Part shown: piece after piece, positions 16,146 through 23,671 of the stretch
Layout of the letters: each line of letters begins with the position of its first letter
How positions within the stretch are numbered: position 1 is the first letter of the stretch
NCBI GenBank assembly: GCA_003388555.1
Contig: QQVD01000050.1
Location: forward strand, 62,001-126,000
From: Acidobacteriota bacterium
GTDB taxonomy: Bacteria > Acidobacteriota > Thermoanaerobaculia > Multivoradales > Multivoraceae
Length of the DNA: 64,000 bases
Direction: 5' to 3'
The notes under the pieces: model-generated
What the model was told of the DNA's origin: nothing
Seen by the model: the letters and a program-made list of their open reading frames with translations, nothing else
Database searches by the model: none
Translations under genes and position numbers: made by a program

Positions 16146-17303
16146 CTACTCTGCGTCCCCCTCGGCGTCCCCTTGGCTCTCGCCGGCACCGTTCTCGAGC
16201 GCCTCGCGCTCCAGGATGCGCGCACCGCGCAGGATGTTGCCCATCGCGTAGTTGCCCTCGTGGCAGGCGTACTCGAAGACCTTGCCGTCGGTGATCGGCC
16301 AGGTGAAGTCGCCGGTCCAGGGCGCGGTCCAGCGGGCCGGGTCCTCGACGGTGAACTCGTAGTGCAGGGTGTCGCGGTCGACACGGGTGAAGCGCTCGAC
16401 GACGTGCAGGGTGGCGGTGGTGCCGAAGAAACCGGGATTGGGCCGGAAGTTGGTGGTGTCGACGACCAGCGTGTCGCCCTCCCAGCGGCCGATCGAGTCG
16501 CCGAGCCAGAAGGTCATCTCGGGCGGAGCGTGCTCACCTCCGATGCGGACCGTGCGCACGTCGTGCACCATCTCGTTGAGGATCAGCACCTCGTCCTCGG
16601 TCTGCACGATGCGTTTCAGGTTGTTGTAGAGCGACGGCAGCGCCGGCACGGTGGAGGCGAAGCTGGTGAGGCAGCGGTCGGAGGTCGGGCGGCTCTCGGG
16701 TCCGTCGTAGGGGCCCGGGCCCTCCCAGTCGACCCAGAAGGCGGTGCCCTCGTCGCCGCGGAACTGGCGCAGCAGCTGACCCATCTGGGCGCGCGCCTCG
16801 GGAGTCATCGGCGGCCGACGCCCGTTCGCGGGGTCGGTGAGGATCGAGGTGCGGAACTTGCCGTCGACCATCACCACCGAGTCGCCGCTGTCGATCCAGA
16901 AGTCGTTGTAGCCACCGACCTCCCCGGCGCCGGAGATGCCGCGCTGCGAGTCGTCGAGCCCGACCGGTGGCGCGCCGCCGACCTCAGGGGCGGCCCGGTT
17001 CGGGTCGCTGCGCTGGGAGCGCTTGGCGCTGTAGGCGCGCTGCTCGTCGACGATCTCCCGGGCCTGTTCCGGAGTCAGGTAGAGATTCTCCCCGAACTCG
17101 GCGGGGCGCTCGAGCGGGGTCAGCGTCGCGATGTCGTAGGTGCCCGACAGGTCGGGTCGGCCGTCGGGCATGCGGGGGACGTCGCCGCCCTCGCCGCCGG
17201 CTGCCGAAGCGATGGCGAGGACGAGGAGCAGCCCGGGGATCGCGGCGAGGATCGACCGAGTGGATCTCGGGGCGGAGGGTCTCTCGGCTGGCTCGGGATG
17301 CAT
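16146..17303 (-). CDS. Exported conserved protein, 'WEGDTLVVDTTNF' family
   Basis: A 385-residue protein. ATG 17303 has a strong ribosome site (AGGGAGGAAG). A signal peptide spans ~18-37 (ILAAIPGLLLVLAIASAAGG). The start of the mature protein, MPDGRPDLSGTYD, and the C-terminal blocks WEGDTLVVDTTNFR, LHVVERFTRVD and YEFTVEDPARWTAPW mark a family with many paralogues in Acidobacteriota and some proteobacteria. Its function is unknown to me. A late segment (YACHEGNYAMGNIL) has a single Cys-His pair but no haem motif. The gene is divergent from the LuxR-type regulator, which could control it. Confidence 0.65.
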   Translation of the reverse strand: MHPEPAERPSAPRSTRSILAAIPGLLLVLAIASAAGGEGGDVPRMPDGRPDLSGTYDIATLTPLERPAEFGENLYLTPEQAREIVDEQRAYSAKRSQRSDPNRAAPEVGGAPPVGLDDSQRGISGAGEVGGYNDFWIDSGDSVVMVDGKFRTSILTDPANGRRPPMTPEARAQMGQLLRQFRGDEGTAFWVDWEGPGPYDGPESRPTSDRCLTSFASTVPALPSLYNNLKRIVQTEDEVLILNEMVHDVRTVRIGGEHAPPEMTFWLGDSIGRWEGDTLVVDTTNFRPNPGFFGTTATLHVVERFTRVDRDTLHYEFTVEDPARWTAPWTGDFTWPITDGKVFEYACHEGNYAMGNILRGARILEREALENGAGESQGDAEGDAE

Positions 17304-17409
17304 GGCTCTTCCTCCCTGGACTCTGGTGGCGCGTGCTCCGAGCATACGGGAGCTTTCCCGCCGAGAGCGCCTACGAGCTGGCACGGAGGGCTCCTGGGTA
17401 CAACTCCGT

Positions 17410-18108
17410 ATGGAGACCGAGGGCCCAGGACGAGAGACTGAGCTCATGGACGCACTGGATCTGCCTGCGGTGAGCGAGCTCGAGATCGTGGTCGTGGGTC
17501 CCTCGAGCCTGGCGCGAGAGGCGTTGGGGTCTCTGCTGGAGCACGAGCTGTCGGCGCGCCTGCACAAGGTGGAGGACGGTGCCGGCGCGCTGCGCCTGCT
17601 CGACGAATGCCAGCCTTCCGCCCTCTTCGTTCTTTCCGACGAGCTCGACGGGCTGCACAGCGAGCTGCTGCGCTCGCTGCGCGCGGCGATGCCGGAGAGC
17701 TCACAGCTCGTCTGGATCGGCTGCGATCGCGAGGTCGAGGAGCCGCCGGAGATCGTCGACGCGGCGCTCAGCCTGCACGACGCCCCGGACGCCCTGTTCG
17801 CTCCACTCGAAGGCCGACCGGAGCCGCGACCTCGGCGGTGGTGCGAGTCCGCCGCCGAGGCGCTCGGTGCGCTCACCGAGCGTGAGCTGGTGGTGCTCGA
17901 TCGGATGGCGCGTGGCATCACCTCGAATCGAGGGTTGGCGACGGAGCTCGGCGTGTCGGAGAACACCGTGAAGTTCCACGTCCGCAACATCCTCGGCAAG
18001 CTCGGCCTGCACAAGCGGGCGCAGGTCGTCGCCTACGCCCTCTCCCGCCGGGATCCGGGGTGGAGGAGCGCAGCCGAGGCGAAGCGCGAGATGCAGCGGG
18101 CCGGCTGA
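17410..18108 (+). CDS. LuxR-family transcriptional regulator with degenerate receiver
   Basis: A 232-residue regulator. The N-terminal ~115 residues follow a receiver-like fold (ELEIVVVGPSSLAREALGSL, then QPSALFVLSDEL). The usual phosphoacceptor pattern (LLDxxMP) is not preserved, so phosphorylation is doubtful. The C-terminal domain is a clear LuxR/NarL helix-turn-helix: LTERELVVLDRMARGIT, then LGVSENTVKFHVRNIL. ATG 17410 and ATG 17446 are both possible starts; a GGAGGG lies about 20 bases before the first. No histidine kinase is adjacent. It is divergent from the 16146 gene and convergent with the cytochrome operon. Confidence 0.8.
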   Translation: METEGPGRETELMDALDLPAVSELEIVVVGPSSLAREALGSLLEHELSARLHKVEDGAGALRLLDECQPSALFVLSDELDGLHSELLRSLRAAMPESSQLVWIGCDREVEEPPEIVDAALSLHDAPDALFAPLEGRPEPRPRRWCESAAEALGALTERELVVLDRMARGITSNRGLATELGVSENTVKFHVRNILGKLGLHKRAQVVAYALSRRDPGWRSAAEAKREMQRAG

Positions 18109-18125: not shown

Positions 18126-18350
18126 CTAGCCGCCGCCGCCCTCGCTCGCCACCGCTCCTTCAGAGCCGCCCGGTCCGCGCACGAGGCGCCAGACCACCAT
18201 CGCGCTGCCGAGGGCCACGAGTGCCGCTCCGGCCAGGAAGAGGCTGAAGAAGGTGGGCGTGCTGGCGGTCAGCGTGACCGCCTCGATCAGCAGGCCGACG
18301 GCGACGAGCAGCGACGGCAGACCACCGACGGCGTGGTGGTGGCGCGTCAC
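18126..18350 (-). CDS. 74-residue membrane protein coupled to NapC-like gene
   Basis: A small protein with two hydrophobic helices (GGLPSLLVAVGLLIEAVTL and FFSLFLAGAALVALGSAMVVW) and a Gly/Ser-rich tail. Its GTG 18350 overlaps the stop of the tetraheme cytochrome gene (GTGA), so it is very likely translated. It is the last gene of the electron-transfer operon. It may be an assembly or anchoring partner; I know no family for it. Confidence 0.6.
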   Translation of the reverse strand: MTRHHHAVGGLPSLLVAVGLLIEAVTLTASTPTFFSLFLAGAALVALGSAMVVWRLVRGPGGSEGAVASEGGGG

Positions 18351-18958
18351 TCGGGTAGCTCCCAGACGCCGAGCGCCTCGAGCTCGTCGACGCCGTGCGC
18401 CGGGCCGTGGCAGTCGAGGCAGGAGGCCTCGCCGCTGTCGAGCTCGGCGGCGATCTCGCCGTGCAGCTCGCTCTCGACGAAGCGACGCGCGCCGCCGTGG
18501 CAGTGCAGGCACTCGCGGTTGGCGTAGGGCTGGTAGAGCTCGAGCGGCTGCTCGGCGGTGCCGGTGACGTTGACCCAGAGGTGCTTGGCGCCGGTGATCT
18601 TGGCGTCGAAGCCGCCGAACATCGTGTAGGTGGTGTGGCAGACGTAGCACGCCTTCTCGCGCGGCACGTAGCGGTTCTGGTAGTGCACCGCCGCGAGCAC
18701 CACGTCGCTGTCGGCCAGCAGCGAGCGGCCGTATGGCTCCATGATGTGGCAGGAGAGGCAGAACTCCGTCGACTGGGCCCGCTGGAGGTGATCGCGCGCG
18801 CCGACCGCGGTGAGGCTGAGGGGCGCCAGCACCAGGACCACGAGGGCGACGATGCGGCCGCTGCGGGTCCGGGTGTGCGCAGGATCGGAGCGCACCAGGA
18901 GGACGATCCCGGCCACCGTCAGGCAGGCTGCGACGAGCAGGCTCTCGGCGAGGGTCAC
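18347..18958 (-). CDS. Tetraheme cytochrome c, NapC/NirT-like quinol dehydrogenase
   Basis: A 203-residue membrane cytochrome. Two hydrophobic segments (~4-23, ~38-56) precede the haem domain. Four CxxCH motifs are seen: CLSCH (~67), CYVCH (~103), CLHCH (~149) and CLDCH (~180). NapC/NirT/CymA-type proteins oxidise menaquinol or ubiquinol at the outer face of the inner membrane and pass electrons to periplasmic carriers. CLSCHIMEPY is typical of the first haem site. In this operon it would feed the monoheme cytochrome or the decaheme subunit. Start GTG 18958 has no strong Shine-Dalgarno. Two rather than one hydrophobic segments are unusual for NapC. Confidence 0.8.
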   Translation of the reverse strand: MTLAESLLVAACLTVAGIVLLVRSDPAHTRTRSGRIVALVVLVLAPLSLTAVGARDHLQRAQSTEFCLSCHIMEPYGRSLLADSDVVLAAVHYQNRYVPREKACYVCHTTYTMFGGFDAKITGAKHLWVNVTGTAEQPLELYQPYANRECLHCHGGARRFVESELHGEIAAELDSGEASCLDCHGPAHGVDELEALGVWELPE

Positions 18959-18997
18959 GGTCGGTGCAGTTTCTCGAAGAGGTTCGTGCGATGGAGG

Positions 18998-19366
18998 TCA
19001 GCTGCCGGGGAGCGAGGCCAGCCAGTCGAGGATCGCCTGCAGCTCCTCGTCGCTACCCTTGAACTTCGCCTTGTGCTTCTCGCCGTCGATCGTCGTGCTC
19101 TGCTTGAGGAAGGACTTGAGCGCCTCGCGATCGGCGGTCGGCGCGGCCTTGCCGAGGTCGGCTCCCACCATCGAGGCCACCTTGACCGAGTGTTCGATGC
19201 CCTGGCCGGCGACGGAGTGGCAGCGGGCGCAGCCCTGGTCGACGAACAGCTTCTTGCCGGGAGCCTCCTCTCCGGCGAGTGCGGGAGCCGCCGCGACCAC
19301 GAGCGAGAGCGCGGCGAGCAGGGCCAGGCGCGCCACGCGATGCGGCCGGATTGCATTGGTGGTCAT
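18998..19366 (-). CDS. Monoheme cytochrome c
   Basis: A 122-residue periplasmic class I cytochrome. A signal peptide ending in AAAPALAG is followed by one CARCH haem motif at ~45-49. A distal Met (VASMVGADL) may be the axial ligand. ATG 19366 follows GGAGG. The segment between has EEAPGKKLFVDQGC, usual for small cytochromes c. It sits 42 bases after the MtrB-like gene and 39 before the NapC-like gene, and probably shuttles electrons between these. Confidence 0.88.
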   Translation of the reverse strand: MTTNAIRPHRVARLALLAALSLVVAAAPALAGEEAPGKKLFVDQGCARCHSVAGQGIEHSVKVASMVGADLGKAAPTADREALKSFLKQSTTIDGEKHKAKFKGSDEELQAILDWLASLPGS

Positions 19367-19408
19367 CGATCGAACCTCCTGGACTCCTGGTGACTTGGCT
19401 GACGTGGG

Positions 19409-21286
19409 TCAGTTCCAACGGTATCCCAGCGACAGCTCGAGGATGTCTGCGTCGTAGTCGTTGAGCGACAGCAGCGACTCGGAGTAGTCGATGGTGCGCA
19501 GCCCGAGATGCACGAGATAGGCCTCGCCGAGCGCGACCTCGACGAAGGCCCGATGGTCGTCGCGCTCGAGCTCGAAACTGCCGTTGGCTTCGTAGCTGCG
19601 CAGATCGAGCCCCAGACGCACGCGGTCGTTGGCGCGCACGGTGGCATGACCGCGCAGCAGCCCGGTGTCGCTGTCGTAGGCGACCGGTACGAGGAAGGTG
19701 GCGCCGTCGAGCTCCGGTCCGATGCTGCGCTGGGTGTCGACGTACCGGTAGCCGAGCCCGATCTCGTAGCGGTCCGTCTGGCGTCCGACGTCCAGCTGCA
19801 GGCTGTCCTGGTCGGCGACCCAGGTGGTGGCGTCGTTCTCCACCTCCTGGATGCGCGCCTCGCCGGAGACGAAGAACCCGCCGTCGAGCCGCGCCCGCCC
19901 ACGCACCGTGAGCCTGGTGCGGTCGGTGGGTGAGGTGAGGGTGAAGGGATCGTCGATCGAGCTGCGCTCCAGATTGGCGCCCAGCGACAGAGTCGGCCGC
20001 GGCGACCAGGCCAGCCGCAGGAAGCCGCCCGTGTGGTCGGTGGAGACCTCGTGCCGGCCGCTGTCGCCGTCCTCCACCAGCTCCGAGGTCACGTCGCGGC
20101 TCTCGACCAGGGCGCCGAAGGTCACGGTCAGGTCGCTGGTCGCCGCCACCTGCAGGCCGGCCTCCAGCGACGTGGTCTCGATCTGCCAGCCGCTGAGGTT
20201 CTCGCCGGCGCCGAAGCGCTGGTCGGCATCCTGATCGAGATCGCGGTGGCCGACGCCGCCGACCAGGGCCCAGCGCTCGTTGAGCAGGTAGGAGAGCTCG
20301 GCCTCCAGCAGGGTGGTCTGGCGGTCGAAAGAGGCGTCTCCGGTCGTGGTGTCGCTGTAGAAGGCGCCGGTGAAGGTCGTGCCCTGGGCCTCCTCGTCGA
20401 AGCGGGCGTCCTGTTCCAGGTCGAAGACCAGCGCCGAGAGATCGATCGCCAGGCGGTCGTTCGGCCGCAGGTTGTAGGCCACCCGATGCTCGTAGGTGGT
20501 GAAGTCGTAGGGCTGGTCGAGGAAGTAGAAGTCGAGCGTCGTGCCGTTGGTCGGGTTCTCGCCGAGGGAGAAGCCCGGCAGGAAGGTGAAGAGCAGGTTG
20601 TCGTACTCGCGCACCGTCTCCGAGAGGGTCAGCACCGATCCGTTCGAGAACCTGTGGGTCAGCGCCGCGCCGAGTGCGTTCATCGACTCGTCGATGCGCT
20701 GATCGAGCTCGAACTCGTCGCGCGAGATGTCGAACACCGTCGTCTGTTCTCCGCGCTTGGTGAAGCGGTCGAAGAACACCTTCAGACTGGTGTCGCGGTC
20801 GAAGAACAGATCGAGGGCGACCCGGTCCTGCACCCGTTCGAAGTCGAAGTGGTGCAGGTCGCCGAGGTTGGAGAGGCTGACCACGGCGTCGGCCGGATCG
20901 ATCAGGAAGTCCTCGTAGAAGTAGCTCGACTCGCGGCGCTGGACCTGGAGGTCGTAGCGCCCGAACTTGCGAACACGGAGGTCGAAGCCCTCGTACGGGT
21001 CGCCGCCGAAGTCGTTCATGTCGACCTGAACCAGGTCGACGAGCTCACTGCCGGGCACCAGCTCGAGATGCAGCGCGAACAGGCGGGCGCCGTCGTCGAG
21101 GTCGACGTGCTGACGGTACTTGCCTTCGGCGCCGCTGACGTCGGTGGAGCGCCAGCCCAGCCGCACGTTGCCGGAGAGCTTGGCGCCGTCGTCCTGGGCC
21201 GTCGCCGCCTGAGGCAGGCCGAACAGAGTCGGTACGGCCAGCAGGGTGGCCGAGAGCAGGCCGGGGAGCGTCGTCTCGATCTTCAT
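19409..21286 (-). CDS. MtrB/PioB-like outer-membrane porin
   Basis: A 625-residue beta-barrel. Signal peptide ~1-30 (LLSATLLAVPTLFGLPQAATA). The mature part is a series of amphipathic strands with aromatic girdles, such as GKLS-type NVRLGWRSTDV near the start and LELSLGYRW at the end. The final residues WN carry an aromatic next to the C-terminus, near the usual barrel signal. Proteins of this type form the sheath around a decaheme cytochrome and carry electrons across the outer membrane. The start ATG 21286 overlaps the decaheme stop (TGATG). No CxxC pair as found in some MtrB N-termini is seen near the start. MtrB-like assignment rests mainly on context and fold. Confidence 0.72.
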   Translation of the reverse strand: MKIETTLPGLLSATLLAVPTLFGLPQAATAQDDGAKLSGNVRLGWRSTDVSGAEGKYRQHVDLDDGARLFALHLELVPGSELVDLVQVDMNDFGGDPYEGFDLRVRKFGRYDLQVQRRESSYFYEDFLIDPADAVVSLSNLGDLHHFDFERVQDRVALDLFFDRDTSLKVFFDRFTKRGEQTTVFDISRDEFELDQRIDESMNALGAALTHRFSNGSVLTLSETVREYDNLLFTFLPGFSLGENPTNGTTLDFYFLDQPYDFTTYEHRVAYNLRPNDRLAIDLSALVFDLEQDARFDEEAQGTTFTGAFYSDTTTGDASFDRQTTLLEAELSYLLNERWALVGGVGHRDLDQDADQRFGAGENLSGWQIETTSLEAGLQVAATSDLTVTFGALVESRDVTSELVEDGDSGRHEVSTDHTGGFLRLAWSPRPTLSLGANLERSSIDDPFTLTSPTDRTRLTVRGRARLDGGFFVSGEARIQEVENDATTWVADQDSLQLDVGRQTDRYEIGLGYRYVDTQRSIGPELDGATFLVPVAYDSDTGLLRGHATVRANDRVRLGLDLRSYEANGSFELERDDHRAFVEVALGEAYLVHLGLRTIDYSESLLSLNDYDADILELSLGYRWN

Positions 21287-22242
21287 CACTGCAGGAACCC
21301 GGGATGCAGGTTGGAGCCGTGGATGGTCACGTGGCAGTTGGTGCACTGCGTGGTCTCGTTGAAGCGCGCGTGGAAGCCGGGCAGCGCCAGGTGGCAGCTG
21401 GTGCACAGCTCGGCGGTGCTCTGGAAGGTGAGCTGGTGACGGTTCGGCCCGCCGTGCGGCTCGTGGCAGGAGGTACAGCCCTCGACGATGGAGGAGCCGT
21501 GCTCGAAGACGAAGGGCCCTGCCTTGTCGACGTGGCAGTCGGCGCAGGCCTGCTGCTTGAATCCGCCGAGCGCCACTCGGGTCGCCGGCGCGTGCGGGTC
21601 GTGGCAGGCGGTGCACTCCATCGTGCCCTGCTCGATCGGGTGGGCGTTCACCGCCCGGAAGTCGGAGAAGGAGCCGGCGTGGCAGCCGGCGCAGGTCGCC
21701 GAGGGGCGGCCGACCAGATCGGCCGCGAGCAGCGGTGCGGTCTCGATCTCGCCGTGGGTGCTGTGGCACGAGGTGCAGTCGAGGCCGGCCTTGGCGTGCT
21801 CGGAGCGGTCGAACCGGGGATGGGCGGCGCCGTGGCAGCTCTGGCAGGTGCGCGAGCGCTGCTGCGCGGTCGAGTCGGTGGAGAAGGCGTAGACCGGCGC
21901 CTCGCCTCCCGACTCGGCGTGCTCGACGCCGCCGGCGTGGCACGCGACGCAGCCCTCCTCGCCGCCGTCGCCCCAGTGCGAGCTCCCGTCGAGCAGCACC
22001 GAGTGCGGTCGGCCCGCGAGAGAGGCGACCATGTCGTCGTGGCAGTCGGCGCACAGGCCGGCGCCCGAGGTGTCGGCGGCAGCCGCGACGACGGCGCCGG
22101 CGCTGCCGGCGGCGAGCGCCGGCCCGGCCCCGGCCGCGATCCACCAGCTGAGTGCGCCGACGGACGCCGCAGCGGCCGTCAGCAGGGCGAGGGTCGGCCA
22201 GCGCGGCGGCGGGTCACCCGGTGACGCGGCGTTTCGACGCAA
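21286..22242 (-). CDS. Decaheme cytochrome c, MtrA/DmsE-like
   Basis: A 318-residue periplasmic multihaem cytochrome. Ten CxxCH motifs are counted: CADCH, CVACH, CQSCH, CTSCH, CAGCH, CTACH, CADCH, CTSCH, CTSCH, CTNCH. An N-terminal hydrophobic segment (LALLTAAAASVGALSWW, then AGPALAAGSAGAV) acts as signal peptide or anchor. The MtrA/DmsE family has ten haems and about 300-330 residues. It plugs the porin and relays electrons across the outer membrane. The start is TTG 22242, preceded by a strong GGGAGG at 8 bases. The following porin gene overlaps by one base. No extracellular terminal cytochrome (MtrC-like) gene is present nearby. Confidence 0.88.
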   Translation of the reverse strand: MRRNAASPGDPPPRWPTLALLTAAAASVGALSWWIAAGAGPALAAGSAGAVVAAAADTSGAGLCADCHDDMVASLAGRPHSVLLDGSSHWGDGGEEGCVACHAGGVEHAESGGEAPVYAFSTDSTAQQRSRTCQSCHGAAHPRFDRSEHAKAGLDCTSCHSTHGEIETAPLLAADLVGRPSATCAGCHAGSFSDFRAVNAHPIEQGTMECTACHDPHAPATRVALGGFKQQACADCHVDKAGPFVFEHGSSIVEGCTSCHEPHGGPNRHQLTFQSTAELCTSCHLALPGFHARFNETTQCTNCHVTIHGSNLHPGFLQ

Positions 22243-22384: not shown

Positions 22385-23671
22385 TCAGAAGTAGCTCTTC
22401 ACCGCCACCCAGACGGTGAGCGGCAGGCTGCCGTATTCGCTCCCCGGGTCGCCCGAGCCGGCGAACACACCCGCGAGGGCGGTGGCCTCGTCGCTCAGCG
22501 ACCAGCTCAGCGCCGGCTGCAGCAGGGTCGAGCCGTCGCTCCAGTTGTGCAGCAGGGCGGCCGAGAGGCCGAGCAGCGGCGTCGCCTGCAGGCCGAGGGA
22601 GAGGCCGCTGTACTCGCGGCCGAGCGAGACGATCTCACCGCGCTGCAGCCGGTCGGAGGCGGCCAGGCGCGCGTAGCCGGCGACGCCGCGGGCGCCGAAG
22701 CCGCTGTACGACTGCTCGAAGGTGAGGCTGAGCCGTGGCGTCAGCAGCCGGTCGATCCCCAGGGTGGCGCGCCAGAAGCCCGGGGCGTCGTCGCCGGGCT
22801 CGGTGTGCACCGCCTCGCCGCGCAGGCCGTAGCCCCGCGCGTCGCCGGTGACGAAGCCGCCGAGCACGGTGTCGCCGTGGAAGCGACCGCCGAGCACGCC
22901 GAGATCGGCGCCGCCGAGGTGGAAACGGCCGAGCCCGCCCCAGCTCCACGCGCCTTCGCCCTCGTCGGCGGAGCAGGTCGAGGGGCAGGCAGCGGCTCCC
23001 TGCGGCGCCGCGATCAGCTCGACCTCGGACAGGGCGCCGACGGGAAGCACCAGCCGCACCGCGTCGACGCCCGGCTTGTAGTCGCGGTCGACCGCCGCCG
23101 GCGCGAACGGGCCGAAGAGGTCGAGCGCGGGCCAGAAGTAGTTGACCCCCCAGGTGATCGGCTGGCGCCCGACGGTGAGGCGGAAGCGCGGATGATCGAG
23201 GCGCAGGTTGAGGCGGTCGATCGAGGCGCCGAGCGCGATCCCTTCGCGCTCGAGGCCGCGGCCGCCGAGAGAGGTCGAGAGGTCGAGCCTGCGGTGGCCG
23301 AGCCTGTCGCCCACCGCGCCGGCGGCGCCGCTGCCGGGCGCTCCGCTCCCCGGAGGAGAGATCGCGGCGAGCAGACCATGCACCTCGAGGCTGAGCTCGA
23401 GGGGCGAGCGCGCTCCGGCCTCGAAGGTGCGCTCGTGCACCAGGCGCACGGCGCCGAGCTCGACGTCTCGTCGCGCTTCGATCTCCTCGACCACGGTGAA
23501 GAGGAAGAGCCGCGCGCTGCCTCCGAACAGCGCCTCGCTGGCCGGGGCTGGGGCCGTGAGCAGGCAGCCGCCGACGAAGGCCAGGACGGTGGCGAGCCGG
23601 CTCTTCCCGGGCTGGCGGCGCTGCCCGCCGCAGCCGCGCTCAGCGCCGACGGTCATCCGAGATCGCGCCAT
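22385..23671 (-). CDS. Outer-membrane beta-barrel protein of transport operon
   Basis: A 428-residue protein. A signal peptide lies at ~25-45 (ATVLAFVGGCLLTAPAPASEA). The remainder is a series of amphipathic strands (RLFLFTVVEEIEARRD, RFRLTVGRQPITWGVNYFW) and ends in WVAVKSYF, an aromatic C-terminus typical of barrels recognised by the Bam machinery. It has no recognised family beyond similarity to porin-like barrels. It is the last gene of the LolA-like/permease/ATPase operon and overlaps the ATPase gene by 32 bases. ATG 23671 and ATG 23656 are both possible. In context it may be the outer-membrane receiver of the substrate. Confidence 0.65.
   Translation of the reverse strand: MARSRMTVGAERGCGGQRRQPGKSRLATVLAFVGGCLLTAPAPASEALFGGSARLFLFTVVEEIEARRDVELGAVRLVHERTFEAGARSPLELSLEVHGLLAAISPPGSGAPGSGAAGAVGDRLGHRRLDLSTSLGGRGLEREGIALGASIDRLNLRLDHPRFRLTVGRQPITWGVNYFWPALDLFGPFAPAAVDRDYKPGVDAVRLVLPVGALSEVELIAAPQGAAACPSTCSADEGEGAWSWGGLGRFHLGGADLGVLGGRFHGDTVLGGFVTGDARGYGLRGEAVHTEPGDDAPGFWRATLGIDRLLTPRLSLTFEQSYSGFGARGVAGYARLAASDRLQRGEIVSLGREYSGLSLGLQATPLLGLSAALLHNWSDGSTLLQPALSWSLSDEATALAGVFAGSGDPGSEYGSLPLTVWVAVKSYF

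Follow-up and report, generated by a model that had tools for sequence, protein, structure and literature searches.

A putative five-gene Mtr/Mto-type electron conduit in a Thermoanaerobaculia genome with no detected MtrC

Can a gene set that includes no MtrC-like surface cytochrome carry electrons all the way between the quinone pool and the outside of the cell, and in which direction would they then run? The question is raised by five genes at positions 18126-22242, on the minus strand, of a 64-kb window (the whole stretch of DNA that was analysed), which lies on contig 4 of a 6.8-Mb, 98.8% complete genome. They encode a decaheme cytochrome, a beta-barrel, a monoheme cytochrome, a NapC/NirT-like tetraheme cytochrome and a 74-amino-acid membrane protein. 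A preliminary description of the DNA, made from its letters, had proposed a complete conduit from quinone to outer membrane in a lineage other than Shewanella. Homology of the decaheme, the MtrB fold of the modelled barrel and the NapC features of the tetraheme bear out the conduit, and the host, a member of the Thermoanaerobaculia (Acidobacteriota), bears out the lineage. We consider it very probable that the five genes form a quinone-linked, trans-envelope conduit of the MtrAB/MtoAB kind, a modular variant of the Mtr and Mto systems.

The gene set and its five proteins

Examination of the window for CxxCH returned 16 matches, where 2.0 are expected by chance. All but one are on the minus strand inside 18407-22053 (15 of 16), with ten in 21286-22242, one in 18998-19366 and four in 18347-18958. 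In order of transcription, the genes are as follows.

21286..22242, minus strand: MtrA/MtoA-like periplasmic decaheme cytochrome c, 318 amino acids, TTG start, signal peptide (TIGR03508, NF041028 and 6r2q_A matches; ten CxxCH and ten distal histidines)
19409..21286, minus strand: MtrB/MtoB-like outer-membrane beta-barrel, 625 amino acids (AlphaFold2 model, MtrB fold match, orthologues in PF11854)
18998..19366, minus strand: MtoD-like periplasmic class I monoheme cytochrome c, 122 amino acids, predicted bis-His (PF00034; profile match to MtoD 4xxl; invariant His98)
18347..18958, minus strand: NapC/NirT-like tetraheme quinone-linked cytochrome, 203 amino acids, GTG start, two N-terminal transmembrane helices (PF03264; invariant CxxCHxM)
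18126..18350, minus strand: small two-helix membrane protein, 74 amino acids, conserved partner of NapC (two hydrophobic segments; left-out profile test; 15 of 15 loci)

The decaheme gene, whose TTG start stands behind GGGAGG, shares 1 nucleotide with the barrel gene in TGATG (stop TGA at 21288-21286, barrel ATG at 21286-21284), and the NapC-like gene overlaps in GTGA with that of the small protein, which also starts with GTG (18350). The non-overlapping neighbours are separated by only 42 nucleotides (barrel and monoheme) and 39 nucleotides (monoheme and NapC), which suggests that the five genes constitute one operon. The open reading frames (ORFs) and the motif scan agree with the preliminary description as to the single strand, the counts of ten, one and four motifs and the TGATG join. 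The small membrane gene that it mentioned is present as well, but as a conserved fifth member of the set and not as an incidental neighbour.

Among NCBIfam models the decaheme is best matched by TIGR03508, the DmsE/MtrA family (171 bits), and next by the GSU2203 model NF041028 (151.8 bits, below its cut-off of 325). The only PDB chain that matches it is 6r2q_A, MtrA of Shewanella (E 2.9e-25, residues 58-314; the molecule name of chain A is odd in the table, and the entry itself is the Mtr complex). All ten CxxCH motifs are invariant in 16 homologues, in which exactly ten further histidines are also invariant (H80, 108, 149, 163, 201, 217, 248, 263, 291 and 308), matching the needs of ten bis-His hemes. 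As judged from these alignments, the decaheme is a relative of the MtrA family.

Sequence comparison is less telling for the barrel. The best NCBIfam model, NF041027 (GSU2204), gives 25.9 bits with a cut-off of 350, and a profile sequence search against PDB returned nothing. An AlphaFold2 model built with 27 homologues has 27 strand elements, for a barrel of about 26 strands (predicted local distance difference test, pLDDT, 86.8; predicted template modelling score 0.77). MtrB is the barrel that sheathes MtrA, and Foldseek places it first among solved structures (6r2q_B, E 1.7e-14). In VIA-align the model superposes on 6r2q_B with Z 25.7 over 551 residues (28-624; root-mean-square deviation 4.0), and the next-best solved structure, a siderophore receptor, reaches Z 17.5. 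The barrel, as modelled, has the MtrB fold. PioB and MtoB have been modelled with 26 strands (PMC10654088).

The monoheme matches PF00034, and its closest full-length counterpart of solved structure comes from the iron oxidizer's pathway discussed below. With a profile of twelve homologues (A7), the full-length PDB match is MtoD of Sideroxydans lithotrophicus (4xxl, E 0.0038). One entry outscores it, an engineered cytochrome c555 trimer that is matched three times and in the heme motif only; other matches are weaker. His98 is invariant in all twelve homologues and aligns with MtoD His95, and no distal methionine is conserved. The His47/His95 ligation of MtoD is unusual among class I cytochromes (PMC4412085). 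The match, weak in score, appears specific in the distal ligand, and the protein is predicted to be an MtoD-type cytochrome with His/His ligation.

The tetraheme matches PF03264 (NapC/NirT, E 9e-12), with NrfH among its NCBIfam matches, and C67xxC70H71xM73 at heme 1 is invariant in nine of nine homologues. Searched alone against PDB it finds nothing, and the family profile finds only a weak NrfH. In that alignment, the heme-1 methionine falls on Met49, invariant K120 on K82 and invariant H126 on D89, all of them residues with roles in NrfH. NapC and NrfH have one N-terminal helix. In the nine tetraheme homologues, two hydrophobic segments precede heme 1, as opposed to the single helix of NapC, NrfH and CymA (for CymA, PMC6295460). 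ImcH was considered as the source of a two-helix NapC, and the similarity is too weak to decide.

Neither Pfam nor NCBIfam has a model that matches the small protein. A profile from which it was left out recovers it at E 8e-10 and matches nothing outside NapC loci. In each of 15 loci its gene stands immediately after that of NapC, and six of these loci had no part in building the profile; the small protein was not found in loci that lack the two-helix NapC. We tentatively propose, at a little under even chances, that the two-helix NapC and the small two-helix protein make up a new type of inner-membrane module that reacts with quinone and serves extracellular electron transfer. Such a module would differ from CymA, ImcH and CbcL and would be interchangeable, across Thermoanaerobaculia, between MtrC-less conduits, canonical MtrAB and MtrCAB. 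No report of the two-helix NapC, the small protein or the MtrC-less set was found in the open-access literature searched, itself incomplete.

Distribution and exchange of parts among relatives

Most of the named relatives that searches with the barrel brought up belong to the Thermoanaerobaculia. The barrel occurs in 15 genomes of the same order, the window genome included, and more rarely in other Acidobacteriota families and in metagenome-assembled genomes (MAGs) labelled Gammaproteobacteria, Woeseia, Rhodospirillaceae and Aminicenantes. The barrel tree leaves the position of the window copy among its order-mates unresolved, so that vertical descent and transfer are not separable. Four MAG contigs labelled Gammaproteobacteria, Rhodospirillaceae or Woeseia (L095, L096, L098, L100) carry the decaheme-barrel family with no adjacent monoheme or NapC, representing either transfer or mis-binning.

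Decaheme, barrel, monoheme, NapC and small protein are conserved together in same-order genomes, and wherever both could be read, decaheme and barrel are found side by side, across several sublineages and in other phyla. Around this pair, parts are exchanged. In two same-order loci that also lack MtrC (L122 and L126), the cassette of monoheme, NapC and small protein adjoins a decaheme and a barrel of the canonical PF11854 type (328 and 332 bits). In another order, the NapC-small protein pair lies directly upstream of mtrC-mtrA-mtrB in one run (L127) and the monoheme is missing, as it is from all MtrCAB loci read. The MtrC-carrying orders have the gene order mtrC-mtrA-mtrB and a separate barrel clade. 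Family f3 of the window's own order retains the decaheme-barrel pair and the monoheme, with NapC replaced by ImcH-like proteins and by multiheme-cytochrome b proteins resembling CbcL/MtoC. In the ImcH-like protein (L062, L065) a NapC domain stands behind further helices, and the CbcL/MtoC-like proteins of the family, whose loci are L062, L065 and L067, have up to 21 hemes. The strongest case for a single electron path comes from these exchanges; NapC and the small protein would be its inner-membrane quinone end, the monoheme its shuttle and the decaheme-barrel pair its outer-membrane wire.

The decaheme would run inside the MtrB-like barrel and so lead a chain of hemes across the outer membrane, an arrangement suggested by the homology of both proteins and the barrel fold. 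The periplasmic bis-His monoheme would shuttle electrons between the decaheme and the inner-membrane tetraheme, which, given its family and its invariant heme-1 CxxCHxM, probably exchanges them with the menaquinone pool. The small two-helix protein probably completes or stabilises the membrane or quinone part.

One copy of the conduit looks broken (L071 8918-10837, G029): its barrel is divided into two parts and has an in-frame TGA, and of the decaheme no more than the final 66 residues can be matched, while monoheme, NapC and small protein look intact. At the window locus itself, the five-gene set has a convergent neighbour, a gene of the LuxR type at 17140-18108 on the plus strand. Between the decaheme and an ABC transporter operon of the LolD/FtsX type lies a 428-amino-acid outer-membrane-like protein (22385-23671, minus strand); it has no Pfam or NCBIfam match and was not seen beside the conduits of relatives. 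A promoter and terminator scan of the locus, in this GC-rich, non-model host, found nothing.

Surface partner and direction of electron flow

The preliminary description had stated that an MtrC/OmcA-like surface cytochrome is lacking. A search of the whole genome with the OmcA/MtrC model TIGR03507 agrees, the best score being 22.6 bits against a cut-off of 209.3. Of 148 relatives, 38 exceed the cut-off. All 38 belong to other orders than the window, and no same-family or same-order genome searched is among them; the class thus has one order that is MtrC-less and others with MtrCAB. We do not regard this absence as an anomaly because MtoAB and PioAB, which serve Fe(II) oxidation, are also without MtrC. 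The outermost heme of the decaheme may meet the extracellular donor or acceptor itself, as proposed for MtoA and PioA, or a soluble or unrelated surface carrier may intervene.

Two other kinds of multiheme protein were considered as partners. Heme ORFs were sought throughout the genome by pattern, which misses widely spaced motifs, and neighbouring ORFs with 37 and 20 CxxCH in regular repeats were found on another contig (G000:C36, L081 9620-15500, plus strand). The 37-heme ORF has no solved relative. The two are candidate periplasmic or extracellular heme wires, and as a substitute for MtrC they were set aside, no evidence tying them to the conduit. Elsewhere, the decaheme-barrel pair has as its neighbour a large decaheme of a family that the OmcA/MtrC model does not match; this family is seen in further families of acidobacteria (L129 9760-12015, L130 6127-8289) and in an Aminicenantes MAG (L101 3153-4070), with 55% identity between two copies. 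It is a possible MtrC analogue, and was rejected as a hidden partner here since no convincing relative is among the multihemes read from this genome.

Several observations count against a complete MtrAB/MtoAB-type conduit. The decaheme scores below the TIGR03508 cut-off (171 versus 192.2 bits), its heme-free AlphaFold2 model is poor (pLDDT 58.8) and was not used, neither the window barrel nor the genome matches PF11854, the Pfam MtrB/PioB family, and the 37- and 20-heme ORFs could serve as surface partners. On the other side, a decaheme beside a true MtrC is likewise below the TIGR03508 cut-off (L076, 186.7 bits), and barrel orthologues of about 40% identity, standing beside the same decaheme, pass PF11854 (35.9 bits in L061 and 34.4 in L070; cut-off 23), indicating that the barrel family belongs and that the window copy has drifted. 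The preliminary description had taken failure of the barrel to match the MtrB/PioB family as fatal; the sequence evidence is mixed, the window copy missing the model that its orthologues pass, and the fold is clearly positive.

It is very unlikely that the conduit works in the manner of DmsEF, supplying a terminal reductase of its own outside the cell, such as a dimethyl sulfoxide (DMSO)-type enzyme, and not minerals. The best NCBIfam match of the decaheme is indeed the DmsE family, but that family covers MtrA and DmsE alike; there is no reductase gene in or beside the operon, and none was noticed at the orthologous loci, which were scanned only for hemes and operon members. Least credible of all is a periplasmic nitrite- or NO-type electron chain beside an unrelated porin. 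NapC/NrfH-type proteins commonly serve periplasmic reductases, and NrfH is among the tetraheme's matches, but the inseparability of decaheme and barrel across sublineages and phyla, the MtrB fold and the lack of a reductase gene in the operon argue against it.

As for direction, the quinone link of the preliminary description stands, but the outward flow that it assumed is only one of the two directions that electrons could take, since the gene content is that of an Mto cluster and MtoAB and PioAB also lack MtrC. Gene content of the genome bears on the choice. menD is over cut-off, no MqnA/D-type gene and no RuBisCO were found in the genome, and three genes of the heme-copper-oxidase family are present; the host would therefore be a menaquinone-based aerobe, probably heterotrophic. 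Inward, Mto-like uptake would draw on Fe(II) or some other donor outside the cell and pass its electrons by way of the monoheme to a terminal oxidase or the quinone pool, supplementing the energy of a heterotroph. The gene set is that of mtoA-mtoB-mtoD-imoA, the monoheme shares its distal histidine with MtoD and is absent from the MtrCAB loci read, and MtoD is believed to deliver electrons to an acceptor of high potential, for instance an oxidase (PMC13390432); this genome has three heme-copper oxidases. We nevertheless hold uptake to be a serious but less than even prospect: S. lithotrophicus ES-1 fixes CO2 whereas this genome has no RuBisCO, menD points to low-potential menaquinone as against ubiquinone in ES-1 (PMC13390432), and in relatives the same modules are joined to MtrC, ImcH- or CbcL-like proteins, which are characteristic of outward respiration. 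In the work of Baker et al., MtoAB/PioAB form no clade specific to oxidation or to any one function (PMC8805035), so a tree would not settle direction. We lean slightly, at somewhat better than even chances, towards outward respiration, with an extracellular acceptor used under oxygen shortage, because menD is present, RuBisCO is absent and homologous conduits stand beside ImcH/CbcL-like quinol oxidases or MtrC; some other direction, or both, is improbable. According to a 2026 study of Mto, the potential of the shuttle decides whether contact with the quinone end is possible (PMC13390432).

About 3 kb from the third heme-copper-oxidase-family gene (C3:123027-124367) lies an octaheme cytochrome with a weak match of the hydrazine-dehydrogenase type (L084 10695-12521, G000:C3); the two possibly belong to a nitrogen-oxide pathway.

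Comparison with known systems

MtrCAB is known in Acidobacteriia (PMC8805035), and a MAG of Thermoanaerobaculum has been reported to carry MtrC and MtrA (PMC9671151). Among inner-membrane modules, a survey published in 2018 counted no CymA, 2 CbcL/MtoC/MtrH and 19 ImcH in Acidobacteria (PMC6295460). New here are the two-helix NapC and the undescribed two-helix protein, a pair found also beside canonical MtrAB and inside an MtrCAB operon. MtrC-less conduits of the Mtr/Mto type are extended to Thermoanaerobaculia, and surveys relying on PF11854 would miss conduits whose barrel, like that of the window, is invisible to this usual Pfam model. The relatives provide a natural part-swap set (with or without MtrC, with NapC or ImcH/CbcL, with diverged or canonical barrel) in which it can be tested whether MtrC sets the direction of electron flow, and the small membrane protein offers a new and well-defined target for knock-out or co-expression.

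The closest parallel is the Mto cluster of ES-1, composed of mtoA, mtoB, mtoD and imoA (PMC13390432), with which the locus shares a decaheme, a barrel, a bis-His class I monoheme, a NapC-type tetraheme and the lack of MtrC. It differs in the strong divergence of barrel and NapC, in the two transmembrane helices of NapC and the small two-helix protein that partners it, in the absence of a second monoheme (PmcA) from the operon, and in its host, which has menD and no RuBisCO. PioAB of Rhodopseudomonas palustris TIE-1 is likewise an MtrAB-type pair without MtrC, but PioC is a high-potential iron-sulfur protein (HiPIP), whereas the window encodes a monoheme and a NapC-type protein instead. GSU2203/GSU2204 of Geobacter (NF041028/NF041027) supply the second-best decaheme model and the best barrel model, although both scores are far under the cut-offs. 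Similar to MtrCAB-CymA of Shewanella, the locus has MtrA homology, the MtrB fold and a NapC-family tetraheme; unlike it, no OmcA/MtrC was found in this genome or in the same-order genomes searched, a monoheme shuttle is part of the operon and NapC has two helices. The MtrCAB systems of other Thermoanaerobaculia and Acidobacteriia (PMC9671151, PMC8805035) encode a full OmcA/MtrC, with a score of 485 bits in one example, and a barrel of a separate clade. The window decaheme is about 35% and its barrel about 20% identical to the same-class copies, and one of these systems, L127, shares the NapC-small protein pair.

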